In this document: positions 6,393 to 41,486 of the stretch, in pieces | Numbering within the stretch: position 1 is the first letter of the stretch | How the letters are laid out: every line of letters begins with the position of its first letter | Origin: a bacterium | GTDB taxonomy: Bacteria; SZUA-79; Acidulodesulfobacterales; Acidulodesulfobacteraceae | Direction of reading: 5' to 3' | Assembly (NCBI GenBank): GCA_021845685.1 | Contig: JAJZVN010000011.1 | Location: forward strand, 1 to 58,358 | Length of the DNA stretch: 58,358 nucleotides | Notes under the pieces: model-generated | What the model was told of the DNA's origin: nothing | What the model saw: the letters and a program-made list of their open reading frames with translations, nothing else | Database searches by the model: none | Translations under genes and position numbers: made by a program

Positions 6393-8363
6393 ATGGATAA
6401 AAAACAGAGCTATGAAAATACAATAAATAAATATGCTTTAATATCTGTTTTTGATAAAACAGGAATAGATGAACTTTCGGCATATTTGAGCATAACGGGT
6501 TATACTATCATAGCAACTGGCAATACTTATAATTATTTAAAAAATATTGCAGGGATAAAGTTAAAAAAAATAGATGAAATAACCAACTTTCCGGAAATTT
6601 TAAGCGGCAGGGTTAAAACTCTTCATCCTGCGGTTTTCGGAGGTATTCTTTCTTTAAGGGAAGACGAAAATCATTTAAGGGATTTAGCCGAAAACTCAAT
6701 AAATTTTATTGATTTTGTGATAGTCAATCTTTATCCATTCAAAGAAATGAAAGATAAAGATATAACTTTTGACGAGAAATTAGAATATATAGATATAGGC
6801 GGAGTTTCTTTATTGAGAGCGGCTGCTAAAAATTTTAAATATGTCACTGTATTGTCGGACCCGCGGCAATATGTCCAAATTATTCCTTATCTCAAAATGT
6901 GCGGTAATAAATTAACCGGCGAATTAAATTCTTGCGGACTTGATGCAGATAAATTTAATAGTATAAATAATTCAGAAAATGCAGCGTATAGCATAAATAA
7001 TGTAAATAATAAAAATAATATAAGTGCGGTAAATAAATCGGATATTAAAAATAACGAAAATGTCGAAATTCCTTTAAGTTTAAAATTTGGATTAGCGGTA
7101 GAAGTTTTTAAGCAAACAAGCGAATACGACGGTGAAATTTTTTCTTTTTTAAATTCGGAATTAAATTCTGAATATAAATCTCAGCATAATAACAATTTAA
7201 TATCACATGATGCTATATCCGAAGAAAACGGTAATTTTAATATTAACGGTGTTTTAAATTCTAAAAGTTTAGACGATGAAAGTTTAATTTTAAAATTAAA
7301 TAAAACTGAAACATTGCGATATGGGGAAAATCCGCATCAACAAGCTTCATTTTATGATATTAATATTATAAATAATAATATTAGCGGCAATAATAACAAC
7401 AATATTAATAATAAGATGAAGGTATGTATTAACCCGACCGATTTAAATAATTCAAATTTTATAAAACTATCGGGAAAAGCAATATCTTATAATAATTTGC
7501 TTGATATTGATTCGTGTTTAGATATTATAAGAGATTTTTATTTTCCCCCTTATAAAGAAGACAAACAAAATAAAGAAAATAAAAATAATAAAGAAAATAT
7601 CAAAGAATATTTTTCTGTAATAGTGAAACACACTAATCCTTGCGGAGCGGCAATAAGCGGTATTTCATTGAAAGATGCATTTATAAAGGCAAAAAAAGCC
7701 GATGAACTATCTTCTTACGGAGGCATTATAGGTTTTAACGGAACTCTTGATGAAGAAACGGCTTTAGAAATAAAACCTATGTTCGTAGAGGTAATAGTTG
7801 CGCCTGATTTTAAAGAAGAAGCGTTAGATATCTTAAAATCTAAGAAAAATACAATTATAATTAAAGTTTCCAAAGATTTTATTTTGTCGTCTTCCCAAGT
7901 TGTCTTGAGATCTGCGGCAGGAGGTATTTTAATTCAGGAAAAAGATATTCAAAAAGATGGAACATCAGGATTTAAAGTAGTTTCGGACATTAAACCCGAC
8001 GAATCTCAATTTAATGATTTGATATTTGCATGGAAGATTGCAAAACATGTAAAATCTAATGCGATTGTATATGCAAAAAACGGCGTTACGTGCGGTATCG
8101 GGGCAGGGCAGATGTCAAGAATAGACAGCGCAAAATTTGCTTATGAAAAGATGCTGTCTTCTTACGGAAGCAAAATAGAAGAATGCGTTATGGCGTCCGA
8201 CGGATTTTTTCCTTTTAAAGATTCAATAGAATATGCTAAAAAGATTGGAATTTCTGCTATCATTGAACCGGGAGGTTCCATAAGAGATAATGAAATAATT
8301 GAAGAGATTAATAAGTCTAAAATGGCCATTGTCTTCACAGGTATCAGGCATTTTAAACATTAA
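6393..8363 (+). CDS. purH: Bifunctional AICAR formyltransferase / IMP cyclohydrolase
   Basis: Catalyses the last two steps of de novo IMP synthesis. The N-terminal cyclohydrolase domain shows ISVFDKTGI, SGRVKTLHP (~72) and NLYPF. The formyltransferase domain shows LRYGENPHQQASFYD (~309), the catalytic VKHTNPCGA (~412), SSYGGIIGFNG, LRSAAGGIL, GAGQMSRIDS and the C-terminal FTGIRHFKH. At 656 residues it is about 130 longer than usual. The excess sits in Asn-rich low-complexity stretches at about residues 176-224, 255-297, 322-348 and 388-403, all between motifs. The usual His after KTLHP (VHGGIL) is Phe here. The start at ATG 6393 gives the normal N-terminus although no Shine-Dalgarno is visible. 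It heads the run purH-purD-purE. Confidence 0.97.
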   Translation: MDKKQSYENTINKYALISVFDKTGIDELSAYLSITGYTIIATGNTYNYLKNIAGIKLKKIDEITNFPEILSGRVKTLHPAVFGGILSLREDENHLRDLAENSINFIDFVIVNLYPFKEMKDKDITFDEKLEYIDIGGVSLLRAAAKNFKYVTVLSDPRQYVQIIPYLKMCGNKLTGELNSCGLDADKFNSINNSENAAYSINNVNNKNNISAVNKSDIKNNENVEIPLSLKFGLAVEVFKQTSEYDGEIFSFLNSELNSEYKSQHNNNLISHDAISEENGNFNINGVLNSKSLDDESLILKLNKTETLRYGENPHQQASFYDINIINNNISGNNNNNINNKMKVCINPTDLNNSNFIKLSGKAISYNNLLDIDSCLDIIRDFYFPPYKEDKQNKENKNNKENIKEYFSVIVKHTNPCGAAISGISLKDAFIKAKKADELSSYGGIIGFNGTLDEETALEIKPMFVEVIVAPDFKEEALDILKSKKNTIIIKVSKDFILSSSQVVLRSAAGGILIQEKDIQKDGTSGFKVVSDIKPDESQFNDLIFAWKIAKHVKSNAIVYAKNGVTCGIGAGQMSRIDSAKFAYEKMLSSYGSKIEECVMASDGFFPFKDSIEYAKKIGISAIIEPGGSIRDNEIIEEINKSKMAIVFTGIRHFKH

Positions 8364-30833: not shown

Positions 30834-31010
30834 GTGAACTACTCCCGCCTTAAGAGGCGTGAACTTCCTGTTTCAATGTATGACGGTGATTGTCCGATAT
30901 TTTGGATACCCGCCGGAGCATACTCCACAGACGTTAATTCCGGCGATTCCCGCCGTATTTTTATTCATTCAAGGAAAAGGTTATCACTGGCGTTTATATC
31001 CCTATCGTGC
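30834..31010 (-). ncRNA. Probable omega-RNA (reRNA) of the TnpB element
   Basis: In IS200/IS605 elements the guide RNA of TnpB covers the 3' end of tnpB and the right end of the element; the guide is the flanking host DNA. Here that region runs from inside tnpB through hairpins such as CGGCGGGAATCGCCGG and TGGAGTATGCTCCGG to the right-end hairpin. The first guide bases would be TTATATGGATTTAGAAG, that is the start of queA. The 5' limit is a guess; expression is not shown by sequence alone. Confidence 0.55.
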
Positions 31011-32065
31011 GTTGTGCCGCATACGGGGCATATCCATTCACGGTCGGACAACTTTAAGTCTTGTTTGATATATCCGCAACCCGGCGTAGAGCAGGTCTTA
31101 CTTGACGGATAGAACCTGTTGACTTTTATTATATCCCGCCCGTACCAGTCGGTTTTATATTTAAGCTGTCCTGTGAATATACCCCACGAAACGTCGGATA
31201 TACTTTTAGACAAATGCCTGTTTTTAACCATTCCTTTGATATTTAAGTCTTCAAGAATGATAACTTGGCTATCGTTTACCGTTCTTGAAGACAACTTGTG
31301 AAGAAAATCTTTACGCTGATTGGCAACTCTTTCATGTAGGATTGACAACTTACTACGGAACCTTGATTTATTCTTACTGCCTTTTGTCATCTTGGCAAAC
31401 TGCCGGTTAAGCGTTTTAAGCCTATTCTGTGCCTTAATTAAGTATTTGGGATTAGCGATTTTAATGCTTTGTTTATCGGATATATTTGTGCCAGTAGTTA
31501 TAACGGCAAAATCCTTAATGCCTAAGTCTATGCCTGATACATTGTTGTTTTTCGGCAGTAAAGCAAAGTCCTTTTCGACAAGCATATTAATATAATACTT
31601 ACTGGACGGATTCCTGGTTATAGTAATAGACTTAACGGTTTCCGATACCTTTCTGTGAAGTTTAATTTTAAGCGGCGTTTTGAGTTTCGGTATATACAAA
31701 AAATTATTGTTTATCGCAAAGTGTTGCGGTATTGTGATAGAGTTTGTGTTTATCTTTTTCTTGAAATTAGGGAACTTAGCTCTATGCTGAAAGAAGTTAC
31801 GAAAAGCCGTATCGAGATTTTTTAGCGTTGCCTGCAAGGATTGAGAGTTAGCGTCTTTCAGGAAAGAAAAGCCCTTTTTGAGCAGAGGCAATATAATAGC
31901 ATTGGTATAGTAATTGGTCTTTATGCCGTAGTTCTTATGCAGGTTAATCGACCTTTCAAGGAAGAAATTATAGACAAAGCGGTTATATCCAATCTGCTCG
32001 TCAAGAAAAGATATTTGCTCTTTGTTGGGATAGAGCCTGAATTTATATGTATATTGCTTAGTCAT
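30965..32065 (-). CDS. tnpB: RNA-guided endonuclease TnpB (IS200/IS605 OrfB)
   Basis: A 366-residue protein, ancestor-type of Cas12. N-terminal TYKFRLYPNKEQISFL, the central SLQATLKNLDTAFRNFF, and RuvC motifs: VSGIDLGIKDFAVI (first catalytic Asp, ~179), VIILEDLNIKGMVK (Glu, ~270) and THDRDINAS (last Asp, ~354). The zinc ribbon CSTPGC...CPVC lies between the last two. All three catalytic acids and four zinc cysteines are present, so it should be active. The C-terminus stops soon after the last motif. Its start overlaps the end of tnpA by 8 nt. Confidence 0.95.
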   Translation of the reverse strand: MTKQYTYKFRLYPNKEQISFLDEQIGYNRFVYNFFLERSINLHKNYGIKTNYYTNAIILPLLKKGFSFLKDANSQSLQATLKNLDTAFRNFFQHRAKFPNFKKKINTNSITIPQHFAINNNFLYIPKLKTPLKIKLHRKVSETVKSITITRNPSSKYYINMLVEKDFALLPKNNNVSGIDLGIKDFAVITTGTNISDKQSIKIANPKYLIKAQNRLKTLNRQFAKMTKGSKNKSRFRSKLSILHERVANQRKDFLHKLSSRTVNDSQVIILEDLNIKGMVKNRHLSKSISDVSWGIFTGQLKYKTDWYGRDIIKVNRFYPSSKTCSTPGCGYIKQDLKLSDREWICPVCGTTHDRDINASDNLFLE

Positions 32066-32471
32066 TATCGCTATTACCTTGAGATTCTACATATTTCTTT
32101 AATATATCTAATGTAACGCCGCCGGTAGTCATTAAAAAATAAGAACGACTCCAGAAGTATTCTTTCCACAATGCTTTCTTTATTTCAGGAAACTCTTTTT
32201 TAATCAACCTACTTGAAGCTGATTTGTAAGAGTTAATGAATTTAACTAATGCTGTTGACGGATTAGAGTTAAACAATATATGTATATGGTCTTTATTATG
32301 GTTAAATTCAATAATCTTTATTTTATATATATATCCTATATATCCAAAAATCTCCTTTAATCTATTGGCAATATTATCATTTATTACTTGTCTGCGATAT
32401 TTTACGACAAATATTAAGTGATACTGCAACAAAAATACTGAATGGAAATTATTATCATATCTTGTAGTCAT
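32058..32471 (-). CDS. tnpA: IS200/IS605 transposase TnpA (Y1 HUH)
   Basis: A 137-residue single-strand transposase. It has the HUH motif in HNKDHIHILFN (~63), the strand YHLIFVVKYRRQV typical of IS200-like proteins, and the catalytic Tyr in LDILKKYVESQ near the C-terminus. Length is normal for the family. A perfect -10 box ends 6 nt before the ATG, so the message probably starts at or next to the start codon (leaderless). Confidence 0.95.
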   Translation of the reverse strand: MTTRYDNNFHSVFLLQYHLIFVVKYRRQVINDNIANRLKEIFGYIGYIYKIKIIEFNHNKDHIHILFNSNPSTALVKFINSYKSASSRLIKKEFPEIKKALWKEYFWSRSYFLMTTGGVTLDILKKYVESQGNSDND

Positions 32472-32792: not shown

Positions 32793-32877
32793 GCGAAAGT
32801 GGCGGAATTGGTATACGCACTGGACTTAGAATCCAGCGGAGTAATCCATGGGGGTTCAACTCCCCCCTTTCGCACCA
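32793..32877 (+). tRNA. tRNA-Leu(UAG), integration target
   Basis: A complete 85-nt tRNA with CCA encoded. Acceptor GCGAAAG pairs with CTTTCGC, the D-arm is present, the anticodon stem-loop CTGGACTTAGAATCCAG has anticodon TAG (reads CUA), there is a long variable arm of class II type, and the T-arm GGGGGTTCAACTCCCCC. The integrase gene lies 123 nt downstream, and a partial copy of this tRNA occurs at 41423-41483. Confidence 0.96.
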
Positions 32878-32879
32878 TA
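32821..32879. other. Attachment site, tRNA side (attL)
   Basis: From TGGACTTAGAATCCAGCGG (anticodon arm) to the tRNA end plus ATA, this segment recurs at 41424-41486. The 19-bp anticodon block and a 29-bp block from the T-arm to the end are identical. Only the variable arm between them differs. The crossover was probably in the anticodon arm, so the 3' part of this tRNA is supplied by the element. Confidence 0.8.
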
Positions 32880-32999: not shown

Positions 33000-34034
33000 A
33001 TGTCAGAGAATATCAGGCTGCGGGGTAAATATTACTATTACGATATGATGATTGACGGGATAAGGTATAAAGGGACGACCAAGACCTCAGATAAAAGCCT
33101 TGCCGAGAAGATAGCCAGCACGATAAAGAGCGATATACTCAGGCAAAAGCATGACTTGCCGACGAGCGTTAACTATGCCGACGATTATAATTTTCAGGAT
33201 GCATGGGAACAATATTTAAAATCGCAATTATCCGGCGCAAAAAATCAAGAAAGGAAAATATTTGCCGCTAAAAACTTCCTGCCCTTATTCGGTAATAAAT
33301 CTATTAAAAGCGTTAGCAAGGCAGAGATAGAAAATTATCAGCTTAAAAGAAAACTTGAAATTATGGCAATGCCTAAAAATATAAATAAAAGAGAACAGGA
33401 CATAGCATTCAGGAGTATAAATATAGAAACAGGCACTCTCCGGCATTTCTTTAATTTTTGTATAGATAAGAATTATATCGAGAAAAACCCCTGCACAGGA
33501 ATAAAGAAATTAAACGAGTTATCAAGAATCAAAATTTTATCGGATAACGATATAAATAAGCTCATCGCCGGCGCCACGAATAAACTTACCAGCGACTTAA
33601 TTACTTTTTTAATTTACACCGGTTGCAGGAAAGGCGAAGCATTTAATTTAAAATGGGATGACGTGGATTTGCAAAATAACGTGATAGCTGTAAAGGGGAC
33701 AAAGACAAAATACGATAGGCATATCCCTATTCATTCTCAATTAAAAGTCCTTTTGACAGGCATCGAAAGAAAGTCTGAATATTTATTTACGGGCATCAAC
33801 GGACAAGTAAAGGACTTTAAGGATTCTTTTAAAACCGCCTGCAGAAATGCCGGACTGAAAGATATGCGCATTCACGATTTAAGGCACGTATTTGCAAGTA
33901 AAATGGTTATGGGCGGAACGAGCCTTTATATTACCGGCGAGTTGTTGGGGCATCGGACTACCCAGATGACAAAGCGATATAGCCATTTGGTGCCGGAGAC
34001 GCTAAAGAAAGCCGTTGACGATGTGTTTAAGTGA
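33000..34034 (+). CDS. int: Tyrosine-type site-specific integrase
   Basis: A 344-residue integrase of the integrative element. N-terminal small arm-binding region (RLRGKYYYYDMMIDGIRYKGTTKT), SAM-like core-binding domain (~67-165), and the catalytic domain with all residues: Arg in TGCRKGEA (~209), Lys in GTKTKYDRHIP, His-x-x-Arg in RIHDLRHVF (~296), His in LLGHRTTQ and the nucleophile Tyr in TKRYSHL (~326). The ribosome site AAGGAG lies 6-7 nt before the ATG. It sits directly next to the tRNA-Leu target. Its C-terminal coding DNA is duplicated in diverged form at 36759-36872. Confidence 0.96.
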   Translation: MSENIRLRGKYYYYDMMIDGIRYKGTTKTSDKSLAEKIASTIKSDILRQKHDLPTSVNYADDYNFQDAWEQYLKSQLSGAKNQERKIFAAKNFLPLFGNKSIKSVSKAEIENYQLKRKLEIMAMPKNINKREQDIAFRSINIETGTLRHFFNFCIDKNYIEKNPCTGIKKLNELSRIKILSDNDINKLIAGATNKLTSDLITFLIYTGCRKGEAFNLKWDDVDLQNNVIAVKGTKTKYDRHIPIHSQLKVLLTGIERKSEYLFTGINGQVKDFKDSFKTACRNAGLKDMRIHDLRHVFASKMVMGGTSLYITGELLGHRTTQMTKRYSHLVPETLKKAVDDVFK

Positions 34035-35021: not shown

Positions 35022-35816
35022 TTAAATAATTACCGTTGTTTTTTTATATAACAAAGGCAATTTATCTTGTCTCATCCTGAATTTAGTTCCGTGATTATGT
35101 CCCGTACGAGCATCAAAATCCACCAGAATATTCGCATTTTCAATTTCGTTTAAAAATCCTTCAAAATTGAATTTTTCTAACATCATAACCTTTGAATACC
35201 AATAAAACTCTTTTTTATTATCAGTTTTAACTTCCGCTTGTACATAAAAGCAATTTAGTAATTTTGTTCCTGCTTTGTGTTCTAAGTCGTCAAATCCCCA
35301 ATATGGTTGCGGATTCAATTCTTTTAATCCAATTATATTCTCCACCGATTTTAACCACTCGGAATGTCTTACGTCAACGGCTTTGGAGTCAAAGGAAATT
35401 AGAACCTTTCTTTCTTTTCTGTCAATAACAACCATAAAACCGCGATCGCTTCGGGATAACCCATGAATAGTCTGCCGAAAGCTCATTTCGCCGGCAGGAT
35501 ATTTTTTGCCCGATTCTCCATGCGCCCAACCGTATTTTGGCAATAAAATTTGGGGCACAAAACGAATCGCGCGCGGCGACGGTTCAATATGGAATAAAGT
35601 GGTCAAAGATGATGAGTTGATGCGTTGCGATTTTAATTCCCATTCCGCCGCATTAGGGATAGGTAAATTATTTTCTTTAATACCGATCAAGTCTTCTAAC
35701 GTATTACCGATTCCGCCGTGATTACCTGTTCTGGCATTTGCAATCCATCCAGATGCAGAAATTTCTTTTAACTTTTCGATTAATTTTGGCTTTGTATAAA
35801 TTATAGGTTCAGTCAT
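35022..35816 (-). CDS. Type II restriction endonuclease, MvaI/BcnI family
   Basis: A 264-residue nuclease. It contains the family pattern GNHGGIGNTLEDLIGIKENNLPIPNAAEWELKSQR (~32-66 in pieces), where the Glu/Asp and ELK residues form the catalytic site, then SLTTLFHIEPSPRA and KYGWAHGESGKKYPAGEMSFRQTI, typical of MvaI/BcnI-like enzymes, and a C-terminal DFDARTGHNHGTKFRMRQ. MvaI and BcnI act as monomers on CCNGG-type sites (CCWGG, CCSGG), so a related target is likely but not certain. The start overlaps the end of the methyltransferase gene by 8 nt, so the two are translationally coupled, methyltransferase first. Confidence 0.9.
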   Translation of the reverse strand: MTEPIIYTKPKLIEKLKEISASGWIANARTGNHGGIGNTLEDLIGIKENNLPIPNAAEWELKSQRINSSSLTTLFHIEPSPRAIRFVPQILLPKYGWAHGESGKKYPAGEMSFRQTIHGLSRSDRGFMVVIDRKERKVLISFDSKAVDVRHSEWLKSVENIIGLKELNPQPYWGFDDLEHKAGTKLLNCFYVQAEVKTDNKKEFYWYSKVMMLEKFNFEGFLNEIENANILVDFDARTGHNHGTKFRMRQDKLPLLYKKTTVII

Positions 35817-36567
35817 AATTATATAATAATTTTCCTTGTTGTATATGCAATTTAATTCGTTCTTCGGCCATATTGCAGTATTCCGGAGAATTATCGATGC
35901 CGATATAGTTTCGATTAAAATTTATTGCGGAAATCGCGGTCGTTCCAGAGCCCATAAATGGGTCTAAAATAGTTTTTGCATTAGTCGATGAAACTATCCT
36001 ATCAATTAGATTAATAGGAAAAGCGGCGGGGTGATAGTTTTTCATTTCTTGAGTAAATTCCCAGACATCGCCATAAGCATTTGCTTTTTCAGATAGTTTA
36101 AATTTAGGCTTAGCTATCAAATAAATAACTTCATAAGTCGGCAAGAAATAACCGGGATTAAAATTAAAGCCTCCTTTTCTTTTCCAGATAATAATTTGCC
36201 GGACTGGAAAGCCGTTAACTATATCTTGCCTATCTTGTAAAAGTCCGGCTTGCACCCGCCATTTATGGTTATAAAAAATTGCCCCGTCATCAGATAATAT
36301 TCTCATCATTTCCGCTAAACAATTTCTTTGCCATTTTACGTATTTATCATGTGGCATGCAGTCGTCATGGTGCGAATAGCCTTTTTGCAGGGCGGCATTT
36401 GCCCATTTTCCGGTTTTGCTATTCTTCATTCCGTTGCCGGTGGAGTTTTTTAAATTATAAGGTGGGGATGTAACAATTAAATCAATAGATTCATCGGGGA
36501 TTTGTTTCATTATATCTATTGTATCTCCGCATATTATCTTATTTATGAAGTCCGTCAATAATTCCAT
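35809..36567 (-). CDS. DNA (cytosine-N4 / adenine-N6) methyltransferase, beta class
   Basis: Protective methyltransferase of the type II system. Motif IV TSPPYNLKNS (~33) comes first and the SAM-binding motifs X/I, DPFMGSGTTAISAINFNRNYIGID (~200), last: the beta-class order. TSPPY favours N4-cytosine methylation, which fits the partner of MvaI/BcnI-like nucleases. Length (252) is at the small end but all motifs are present. Upstream is a gap and then the integrase remnant. Confidence 0.92.
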   Translation of the reverse strand: MELLTDFINKIICGDTIDIMKQIPDESIDLIVTSPPYNLKNSTGNGMKNSKTGKWANAALQKGYSHHDDCMPHDKYVKWQRNCLAEMMRILSDDGAIFYNHKWRVQAGLLQDRQDIVNGFPVRQIIIWKRKGGFNFNPGYFLPTYEVIYLIAKPKFKLSEKANAYGDVWEFTQEMKNYHPAAFPINLIDRIVSSTNAKTILDPFMGSGTTAISAINFNRNYIGIDNSPEYCNMAEERIKLHIQQGKLLYNYD

Positions 36568-36758: not shown

Positions 36759-36872
36759 TTAGGGAATAGGACGACCCAGATGACGAAGCGGTATAGTCAT
36801 TTAGTGCCGGAAACGCTGAAAAAGGCGGTTGACGATGTGTGGGGGAAGAAAGATAAAATAATAATTAAATAA
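36759..36872 (+). pseudogene. C-terminal remnant of a second tyrosine integrase
   Basis: A 37-codon open fragment reads LGNRTTQMTKRYSHLVPE and then TLKKAVDDVWGKKD. This is almost the same as the end of the integrase at 34.0 kb (LGHRTTQMTKRYSHLVPE), with many silent base changes. The catalytic Tyr is present but everything upstream is missing, and the active-site His is replaced by Asn. It suggests an older or second element at this locus, with the R-M module between the two integrase ends. Confidence 0.88.
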
Positions 36873-37711: not shown

Positions 37712-38221
37712 TTATATTTTTTCTATATATTCTTCACATTCTTTCAATTCCCTTACTTCATTTTTTTTGTTAACGGGAAATTTAACAAAGAAAGTATATT
37801 GATAATTTAAGTTACCTTTATACGCCTTTAATTTTTCTCTATCATTGCCATTGTCACTTGTTGTTGTCTTTTTTGCTTCTATGACTATAAAATTGTCGTC
37901 GTTAGTTCCTCTGCGATGAATAATAATATCAGGATAGACAGTTACGCCATTGGTATCATCGGAGCAAATTTCTTTCTTTAATAAATTTATTAATGAATTT
38001 AAACGTTTTGTTTCTAAACCATTTCTATTATACTCGCAATCCACATTGTGATTAGGAAACTCGTCTTCCAAATAAATCGCAAATCGATGCGTAATGCTTC
38101 TTTCATTTGCATCAACCTCTAACAGATGCGAATCGTTTCTTAATAATTTCAGGTAAGCGTTCTTAATTTTCTCTAAGACTTCTTTATCGTCTATATTTAT
38201 AAAATCATTAGATTTATTCAT
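37712..38221 (-). CDS. PD-(D/E)XK nuclease-like protein of unknown function
   Basis: A 169-residue cargo gene of the integrative element. The centre carries TVYPDIIIHRRGTNDDNFIVIEAKKTT (residues ~101-127 in pieces): PD, a spacer, then E-x-K in a beta strand, which is the layout of the PD-(D/E)XK nuclease superfamily. The N-terminal half is helical and polar (SHLLEVDANERSITHRFAIYLEDEFPNH). I chose ATG 38221 because GGGGCGG lies 5-11 nt upstream; a TTG at 38251 is in frame but lies closer to the preceding terminator. It could be a restriction-like or defence nuclease, but no partner is adjacent. Confidence 0.72.
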   Translation of the reverse strand: MNKSNDFINIDDKEVLEKIKNAYLKLLRNDSHLLEVDANERSITHRFAIYLEDEFPNHNVDCEYNRNGLETKRLNSLINLLKKEICSDDTNGVTVYPDIIIHRRGTNDDNFIVIEAKKTTTSDNGNDREKLKAYKGNLNYQYTFFVKFPVNKKNEVRELKECEEYIEKI

Positions 38222-38251
38222 AATGTCCGCCCCTATTTTAAATAGCTGCAA

Positions 38252-38286
38252 AAATAAAAAACCCCCGATATTTCACATATCGGGGG
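38252..38286 (-). terminator. Rho-independent terminator of the chimeric gene
   Basis: On the minus strand CCCCCGATAT-GTGA-AATATCGGGGG (38286-38262) is followed by TTTTTTATTTTT. A textbook intrinsic terminator 33 nt after the stop of the gene at 38319. Confidence 0.9.
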
Positions 38287-38318
38287 TAAGATTAACTAAT
38301 TCTAACAATATGTTGCTA

Positions 38319-39323
38319 TTAGAATGCTGCTCCTGAAATTAATGTAGCAGTTCTTGTAAAATCGTCAACAGCGTAAAGTTGATAATTACCTCCTGTAAAG
38401 TTAGATCCCGCAAAAGCTTCAAAACCGCCTCCGCAAGAGCTATTTACATTTGACGTACCAACAGGAGCTCCGCCAGCAACTGATGTTGCCTTATACGTAA
38501 GCGGGAATCCTGCGCCTTGCTGAGCAGTAGGACCAGATAAACTAGCCGTGCTGTTGATTGCAACGCCGTAATAGAAATATAGTCTGCCGACAGGAAAAAA
38601 TCCTATATCGCCAAAACCGCCCATTGCTGGTGTCGTTGGTCCACCAGTTAATTTAGCTACCCCAAGCGTATAGGTATTATAACCGCCTTCAGCAGTTAAC
38701 ACACCACCAGTACATGAATATGGACCGAGATCTATATTATATACGCCTGCGCCCTTTGTATTCGTAGCACTGTAGAAAGAATGTATTGGCGAAACTGCGC
38801 CCGCTATAGGCGCTGCTGCAGGAGCAGAACTTTCTCCTGCGCTAATATAAGCCGAATTTGTTGAAGTGAACGCCGTTTCGTCCGTATGCTTTAAAGATTT
38901 ATGAATTTCCCTATTAAAGTTTTCATTCAATTTAAAATCATATGTCCGGTTTAAGTTGTGATTTTGAGAATATTTATTCAAAGCGGTTTCAAACTTATTT
39001 AATGCGGCTTTATCGAGTTCGAATGTTTTATGCGCTATTCCGTCGTTTATTCGGCTATCGAGATAAGCTTTTACGGCTGTGCCGGTAGTTTTAGTTAAAT
39101 CCTTTAGTTTTAAGTTTTCTTTTGCCCAAGTCCCAAATCCGGCTACGCTTATCCTGTATGCGTCGTTCGTCCGGTAACTGTAGATTCCCGTTTTTTCGGC
39201 TATCCCGTGAGAACCGGTTGCGCCTGCAAGTCGGGCTTCGTTTTTAGCTGAGTATTTAGAATTTCCGATCTCTTTTATTTCTTTAAAAATTTCAGTAACT
39301 TGCCATTTTATTGTGCCTTTCAT
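38319..39323 (-). CDS. Chimeric protein: integrase-like N-terminal domain + Gly/Ser/Thr-rich, pilin-like C-terminal half
   Basis: A 334-residue protein I cannot name. Residues 1-~120 (KGTIKWQVTEIFKEIKEIG ... GIYSYRTNDAYR ... FGTWAKENLKLKDLTKTTGTAVKAYLDSRI) resemble the core-binding N-terminal domain of some tyrosine recombinases, but no catalytic domain follows. From ~150 the sequence changes to Ala/Gly/Ser/Thr-rich with two cysteines (YSCTGG, NSSCGGG) and segments such as FFPVGRLYFYYGVAI and FEAFAGSNFTGGNYQLYAVDD. These recall the globular part of type IV pilins; no pilin leader or long hydrophobic helix is present. Codon use in the second half is less AT-rich. It has its own terminator. Both domain calls are by eye and uncertain. 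Confidence 0.6.
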   Translation of the reverse strand: MKGTIKWQVTEIFKEIKEIGNSKYSAKNEARLAGATGSHGIAEKTGIYSYRTNDAYRISVAGFGTWAKENLKLKDLTKTTGTAVKAYLDSRINDGIAHKTFELDKAALNKFETALNKYSQNHNLNRTYDFKLNENFNREIHKSLKHTDETAFTSTNSAYISAGESSAPAAAPIAGAVSPIHSFYSATNTKGAGVYNIDLGPYSCTGGVLTAEGGYNTYTLGVAKLTGGPTTPAMGGFGDIGFFPVGRLYFYYGVAINSTASLSGPTAQQGAGFPLTYKATSVAGGAPVGTSNVNSSCGGGFEAFAGSNFTGGNYQLYAVDDFTRTATLISGAAF

Positions 39324-41097
39324 AATAAATTTACCTATTTTAAGTTAAAATAATTCTCTATATTTGTATTTAAACAAGACTGTAGATGGCAAGTTTAACT
39401 CGTGCGATTGAGTGCCTTAAAATCAGGCTAAAGTTAAGAACGGAACTTTTTTTGAAAGGTAGTTTTCCTTTTGCCTATTTTTTCTTGACTGTCTAAAAAA
39501 GTCTCAATCTCTTTTATTTTTTAGATAATAAGAAAGCGCCGGCGGGCACAAGATTTTTTGCAATTCTCGTCAATAAGCGCTTTGCGCTGGAATTGCTGGA
39601 TAAAAATCTCAAAAAGCCTGATACGTAAATAAATGGGATTGTTATTACAGGAATGACTGCATAACGGTGTATGCAGTTTTTATTATATGTTTTAAATCTC
39701 TATTTTCCCGAATGGAACACGGGCGTTTACGGCGCAAATCTTTCTTTCTCCCTGTATTTAAGGGGGTTGTGGTAATATTAAGAATATTTTTATTTGCGCA
39801 AAAGGGCGGTATATAAAAAATAAAATAAGAGACCGCCAAAAGCAAAAGTATCCAAAAAAAGATAAAAGTATTCCTATATCAAAGAAAATTGATATAAAAA
39901 TAGATTTAAAATTTAATGGGATTTTTTAGGTTTTTATTATTTAAAGAATTATTTATTATTGTCTATTGTTACCAATAAAATCAAGTTCCAGATTCTGGAA
40001 CTTGATACTGATATTTCAAAATCCGACCAATAATAAATAAGATAAATAATAAAACATAGGATTTAAATGAAGTTAATAAATAATTTTTAGGGTTTTCTAC
40101 TTAATTATTTATTACTTGAATGATTTTAGGACAAAACTATACAAATAAGATAGGAAGCGAAAAGAATACTAAAATTTAAAATAGCTATGCTGATTTTAAA
40201 TAAAAATATCCTTATATAATTAAATATACTTTTAAAAATATATTTAATTATGCGGTCTGAACTAAATCTGTCTCCATTAATAATTTGACCGTAAATTAAT
40301 AATGTAACGTCGCTCAGATTTAATTTTAACAAGATTGAATTGAAAGGCTGGTTTGTCAATATTATATGCTCTTGTTGTATATATAATATTATCGCCAGTA
40401 GTATTTGTTTTTTGTTTCTTGCGAAACGATAGAAAACAAATATAAAAAATCTTTAATAATTATAGGATACCAGATAAAAAGATAATGTCAAGAGTTTTTT
40501 TAGGGATACTGAAAAAATATTTATTTACTAATATCCACATCATTTTTTTGGTCTGCATCCTTTTCTCTTATTTGCTATTCGCTCAGTTTGGTAAAACGAT
40601 AAGATTTTGTTCGTTATTAGAATTATTTAAGCAAGGTTTCACAAACATTTGTGAAACCTTGCTATCCTCTTTTTTATCTTTTTTATTACTACAAGGCTCT
40701 GTTTGTATTTAATTCGCTTCGCTATTAAATACAAACAGAGCAGGCGGTTGCCGATCGTCTAAAATTATTTTAATTTTTGTAATAGTGTCGGCGGCAGTGT
40801 CATTTTAGGGTGGTTTTTGCTTGCTCCGTTTTGCTGTTTTTTCTTACTCCATTATCACGCCTACGGCGTAATAACTCCGGCGAAAAAAGAGCGCAAAACT
40901 CCGGCGCAAAAACATTTTTAAAGGCAGTATATTGAGAAACTCGCTTTAATGACAAAGCTATCTCTCAAACTCTCAAAGAAATCGGGAATGGAGTAGAAAC
41001 ATTCCGGCGTCTAAAAGAAAAAACCCTTTATTATTTTAAATATCGGTTGTATAATTGATAAAAACATTAATTTAATTTTAATCGGGGGTATATAATT
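39324..41097. other. 1.77-kb hairpin-rich region of the element, no convincing gene
   Basis: I find no open frame with a ribosome site and sensible composition. Strong inverted repeats are: TCAAGTTCCAGA/TCTGGAACTTGA (39981-40005), GCAAGGTTTCACAA/TTGTGAAACCTTGC (40631-40662, followed by T-rich DNA), and a perfect 17-bp pair CTCTGTTTGTATTTAAT (40697) / ATTAAATACAAACAGAG (40724-40740). The last third is GC-richer, with GCGCAAAACTCCGGCG-type repeats (40860-40920). It could hold a replication/transfer origin or structured RNA; this is not shown. Confidence 0.5.
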
Positions 41098-41423: not shown

Positions 41424-41486
41424 TGGACTTAGAATCCAGCGGGACAACCCATGGGGGGGGGTTCAACTCCCCCCTTTCGCACCATA
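41424..41486. other. Right attachment site: displaced 3' fragment of tRNA-Leu (attR)
   Basis: TGGACTTAGAATCCAGCGG and, after a diverged variable arm and a run of nine G, GGGGTTCAACTCCCCCC plus TTTCGCACCATA repeat the 3' part of tRNA-Leu at 32.8 kb. The acceptor 5' half and D-arm are absent, so it is not a working tRNA. It marks the right border of the element; the distance between the two copies is 8.6 kb. yebC begins 76 nt further on. Confidence 0.9.

Follow-up and report, generated by a model that had tools for sequence, protein, structure and literature searches.

The gene at 38319–39323 of the window (the whole 58,358-nucleotide stretch of DNA that was analyzed) very probably arose as a chimera when ca. 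4.9 kb was deleted from an integrative element, and it is most likely a relic without function. Both the chimeric gene and the fusion were confirmed as real. The parts of the gene are as follows.

38319–39323, minus strand: chimeric open reading frame (ORF) of 334 amino acids, ATG to TAA, with no internal stops
38886–39323, minus strand: N-terminal half, ~146 codons from the beginning of a XerC-like tyrosine recombinase (arm/core-binding part), whose start codon is retained; ~70–81% identity to intact integrases
38879–38886, minus strand: junction, an 8-bp overlap, T[A/G]CGGACG, of which CGGACG is identical in integrase, pilin, and chimera
38319–38878, minus strand: C-terminal half, a pilin globular head from pilin codon ~56 to the stop, with two conserved cysteines; 89–90% identity to the L050 pilin head
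38250–38287, minus strand: intrinsic terminator that came with the pilin gene; the hairpin also lies 3' of the intact pilin in L050 and, slightly changed, in L051

Integrase, pilin, and chimera were compared base by base. Up to T[A/G]CGGACG the chimera tracked the integrase, and thereafter the pilin; the 8-bp overlap contained one mismatch. The terminator consists of ACCCCCGATATGTGAAATATCGGGGGT followed by a T run. Because the overlap is far below the k-mers usually used by assemblers, an assembly join at this point is unlikely. The source assembly (3.04 Mb, 96% complete) is in 199 contigs, which would favor an artifact made from two templates, but merely 6–8 bp are common at the join, and both flanks run unbroken in a 58-kb contig and are collinear with a second assembly; such an artifact was therefore judged extremely improbable.

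The first ~120 residues had been described in an earlier note, made from the sequence alone, as a recombinase core-binding domain, and strong homology bore this out. Residues 1 to ~147 were 71% identical to an intact recombinase on contig C130 of the same genome and 79–81% identical to intact recombinases in G004, and they aligned end to end with intact XerC-like tyrosine recombinases (Phage_int_SAM_1 + Phage_integrase) of related genomes. Separate profile searches of the two halves, which the note had proposed, gave a weak Phage_int_SAM_1 match for the N-terminal half (E 0.0069, below the curated Pfam cut-off) and no Pfam family for the C-terminal half alone. The presence of the core-binding (SAM-like) domain is indicated by homology to the intact members and by the helical model: structure prediction yielded a confident helical core at residues ~61–90 and ~101–130 (pLDDT 84–95), consistent with a core-binding fold. 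In a PDB fold search with the chimera model, no match fell below E 0.001; the top matches, which were weak, were the recombinases IntI4 and Xer. Unlike the intact enzymes, the chimera lacks the whole catalytic domain. A seven-way alignment placed the catalytic R, K, HxxR, H, and Y of the paralogues entirely beyond the junction, and none of them is retained.

The remainder had been taken for the globular part of a type IV pilin with two cysteines, which was correct. Residues ~147–334 shared 83–90% identity with complete type IV pilins from G004 and G001, two metagenome-assembled genomes (MAGs) of the same genus, and 48% and 51% with complete N_methyl pilins on contigs C25 and C157 of the window's own genome; the cysteines are C204 and C297. 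In a tree of 27 pilin heads, the chimera head grouped with complete pilins from both of these MAGs (support 100/98). Its sequence, its two cysteines, and the downstream terminator are those of the complete type IVa major pilins (N_methyl) of the genus. The pilin is entered at codon ~56, however, past the leader and N-terminal helix, and codons ~1–55 are gone. No prepilin leader, GFTLIE motif, or N-terminal helix was found in the chimera, and the N_methyl match that is present in the pilins of L050, L003, and L004 was absent from it (Pfam); the product could be neither processed nor assembled as a pilin. The head was modelled at low confidence, but an intact-pilin control was equally poor (mean pLDDT 43, with a similar alignment), and low model confidence was dropped as an argument against folding of the head. 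The different codon bias that had been remarked upon stands as a difference in composition between the halves (GC, 0.37 in the N-terminal half vs. 0.46 in the C-terminal half; GC3, 0.35 vs. 0.28). As a sign of foreign origin it was ruled out, since the contrast runs in the same direction as that seen in G004 between the genes for intact integrase and pilin.

The decisive evidence for the deletion came from contig C72 of G004 (L050, 10.3 kb), a same-genus relative. Its genes run on one strand in the order integrase, 146-aa gene, HTH_17, DUF3987, RepB primase, lspA, complete pilin, nuclease-like gene. The relevant features of the two sequences are listed here.

L050 9631–8708: integrase, intact, with the catalytic part
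L050 4483–3749: complete pilin, N_methyl present
L050 3641–3126: nuclease-like gene, neighbor of the pilin
Window 37712–38251, minus strand: nuclease-like gene with BsuBI/PstI and HsdR-N matches that are weak and fall short of the cut-offs; the syntenic pilin neighbor in G004 contig C72
Window 39324–40090, minus strand: integrase upstream region (promoter side), in which collinearity with L050 persists until the L050 contig ends

Window positions 37776–38886 aligned to L050 3205–4319 (88%), and positions 38879–39978 aligned to L050 9187–10276 (82%), with a final 65 bp at 98%. Relative to the L050 order, there was a single gap of ca. 4.87 kb, located at the junction. The segment missing from the window comprises the rest of the integrase (beyond codon ~147), the 146-aa gene, the HTH gene, DUF3987, the RepB primase, lspA, and the promoter and N-terminus of the pilin. 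Both flanks are thus collinear with an intact, ancestor-like arrangement, and a short overlap lies at the join, as a deletion relic should show. Of the origins suggested earlier, a recombination-made fusion holds, and a deletion inside an island bearing both genes is what the data indicate. A captured pilin cassette is a poorer fit, given that the terminator and the downstream neighbor are placed exactly as they are beside the intact pilin of G004; insertion of a pilin cassette into an integrase gene was ruled out by this synteny. The terminator credited to the gene itself is real, but it is the pilin gene's own.

We infer that an ancestral island carried the integrase and pilin genes on one strand in an L050-like order, and that illegitimate recombination at the 6–8 bp common to both genes joined their ends. 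The reading frame would have been kept by luck (one chance in three), and the resulting ORF would have taken its start and upstream region from the integrase and its stop and terminator from the pilin. If expressed, the product would presumably be cytoplasmic; weak DNA binding through the core-binding domain is conceivable, and the protein should be incapable of DNA recombination or of entry into a pilus. Most likely the chimera has no function; the lack of catalytic residues and of an export signal speaks against one.

Comparison of the chimera with L050 gave a dS of 0.85 and a dN/dS of 0.17 for the integrase part, as in pairs of intact integrases, and a dS of 0.09 and a dN/dS of 0.72 for the pilin part. 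Within the pilin head, dS was 0.04 in the last 91 codons vs. 0.15 in the first 96. Judged from these divergences, the window and L050 thus came to share the pilin part recently. The join is probably young, because the N-terminal half shows no excess of amino-acid change, and the open frame says little about function. The unequal divergence of the two parts means that the ancestor was a mosaic, not simply a copy of L050; elements that differed from each other may have recombined on the way. The deletion may have occurred inside a single element or while two elements exchanged DNA; both are compatible with the data, and the reading of the junction is the same. The fully open ORF was counted against a deletion relic, as a selected gene would also show it. 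Together with the retained start and upstream region and the conserved core-binding part predicted at residues ~61–90 and ~101–130, it would suit a working two-domain protein, e.g. a decoy or regulator that binds integrase sites and was retained for that purpose. This proposal was nonetheless considered highly improbable: the fusion is recent and confined to a single genome, and the pilin head has no evident role in the cytoplasm.

The distribution among relatives is that of a deletion relic, with no sign that the joined gene is conserved. At least one half was matched in 21 of 30 family genomes, and the junction in one (G000); the search for the same junction elsewhere, another of the checks proposed in the note, found it in no other family genome (29 searched). 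With both functional ends missing as well, the suggestion of a new two-domain protein was left unsupported. The two halves were found apart elsewhere in the window's own genome. The junction was also absent from a scan of named GTDB genomes, which may omit the window's own genome; the nearest relatives in that scan were Candidatus Acididesulfobacter, including isolate AP1 and contigs of the MAG LSA5.bin79. Scans of viral contigs returned no relative of the L050 integrase or of the L050 pilin.

A second integrase–pilin chimera was located on contig C55 of G004 (L060, 6778–7230), beside a tRNA-Val. It is an in-frame fusion of the first ~58 codons of a different integrase with the final ~92 codons of a pilin of the same type, and it is independent of the window chimera because both the integrase and the pilin breakpoint differ. 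Given this independence, island decay beside pilin cargo can apparently produce such fusions repeatedly, though two in-frame cases are too few for an argument from selection. An in-frame “two-domain protein” can thus arise through island decay, which is a warning for domain-fusion databases. Relatives of the pilin head were also observed with a lipoprotein-type signal (LAGC; L059, 6263–6901) and inside a Sel1-repeat protein (L066, 10–1365). These two heads formed their own clade in the tree of 27 heads (support 99/99); they were therefore rejected as instances of the same phenomenon, and pilin heads so appear to be reused as non-pilin domains too.

The island that hosts the chimera has the following features.

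32793–32877, plus strand: tRNA-Leu, probable integration site of the island
32850–32879, plus strand: left copy of a perfect 30-bp repeat at the tRNA 3' end, att-like
41457–41486, plus strand: right copy of the 30-bp repeat, bounding an island of ~8.6 kb
33000–34034, plus strand: intact tRNA-type tyrosine integrase (Phage_integrase, E 1e-25)
35022–36567, minus strand: restriction-modification (R-M) cargo, with an MvaI/BcnI-type nuclease at 35022–35816 and an N6/N4 methylase at 35809–36567

A third element, in G002 (L065), has an integrase of the L050 type and, with it, the 146-aa gene and a gene resembling RepB primase; it also carries the R-M pair of the window, at 88% identity. Cargo of two related elements is thus present in the window island, which has lost their replication module and half of their integrase. 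A remnant 3' end of a second tRNA-type integrase lies at 36759–36840 (84% to 33945–34026), and such a remnant also adjoins the R-M genes in L065. Just outside the island, at 30965–32471, is an IS200/IS605-type pair (TnpA-like, 32058–32471; TnpB-like, 30965–32065), named from the translations only.

Truncated pilin copies were also observed in other family genomes.

L052 5557–7422, L053 6295–8029, and L054 2989–4852: complete pilin facing a 5'-truncated pilin copy, start to start
L055 100–724: 5'-truncated pilin copy of the same kind, at the contig start

In all four loci the truncated copy begins at pilin codon ~36 without a pilin start, and in three of them a TAG stands just before it. Inverted repeats of ~110–160 bp in L052–L054 bracket a segment of ~0.6–0.75 kb that contains the promoter and the constant start. 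The boundary DNA of the silent copies was matched in 9 of 30 genomes, representing three genera; in G011 the boundary was present, with no silent head beyond it in the ORF list. The silent heads did not form one clade in the tree of 27 heads, and at least three changes are forced. The L052–L054 arrangement is a possible pilin-head switch in Acidulodesulfobacterales, which would act by inversion or gene conversion; at these loci no switched or inverted state was seen, and no dedicated recombinase was identified. So far as the Moraxella pilin inversion is outlined in PMC5903667 (citing Marrs et al. 1988), it resembles the loci of the relatives, not the window gene, in having two inverted pilin heads that could use one start; it differs in that the segment between the heads of the relatives holds the promoter and constant start. 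Several genera of an uncultured acid-mine lineage appear to maintain inverted silent pilin copies next to complete pilins, and this could amount to pilin switching in an environmental lineage.

These loci bear on whether the window head itself could be a silent donor, borne on a mobile island and donating its head sequence to an expressed pilin through homologous recombination, with the integrase half as a mere landing place. The window copy is a partial pilin copy without its own pilin start. In Neisseria, the partial pilin gene copies called pilS serve as donors (PMC3899283); the window copy is like them in lacking a promoter and N-terminal codons, but it is fused to an integrase start, single, and island-borne, and donation by it is only conceivable. 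The truncated copies in L052–L055 are a much closer likeness. That conserved 5'-truncated copies face complete genes in other family genomes, that silent heads fall in more than one clade, and that the head is almost the same as in L050 over its 3' part (the low dS of its last 91 codons), as frequent exchange could yield, all favor the donor reading. Nonetheless, the window break lies at pilin codon ~56 vs. ~36 in the conserved silent copies, with ~20 codons of the shared repeat gone; there is no adjoining complete pilin on the island, and in the same genome the closest complete pilins reach just 48–51% identity. We regard a silent donor as quite unlikely. A broader proposal, under which the mobile islands of Acididesulfobacter and its relatives, with pilin heads of which some are 5'-truncated, would be a shared reservoir of head variation and the window chimera a copy still exchanging, is also improbable. 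Most likely the explanation of the window gene is the ordinary one, a deletion relic of young age carried by a mobile island, and the pilin loci of the relatives matter more.

Two repeats were noted near pilin loci. A dispersed palindromic, terminator-like repeat of ~65 bp (CTCCCGACTGCGTTTGACG..GTCGGGAG) occurs, e.g., at L053 8102–8169 and on contigs C86, C104, and C154 of the window's own genome; it is REP-like, with many copies near pilin loci that are sometimes read through in ORFs. Upstream of the pilin in L053 (~7150–7260) is a repeated palindrome, TGACAAAAATTGTCA, perhaps an operator.
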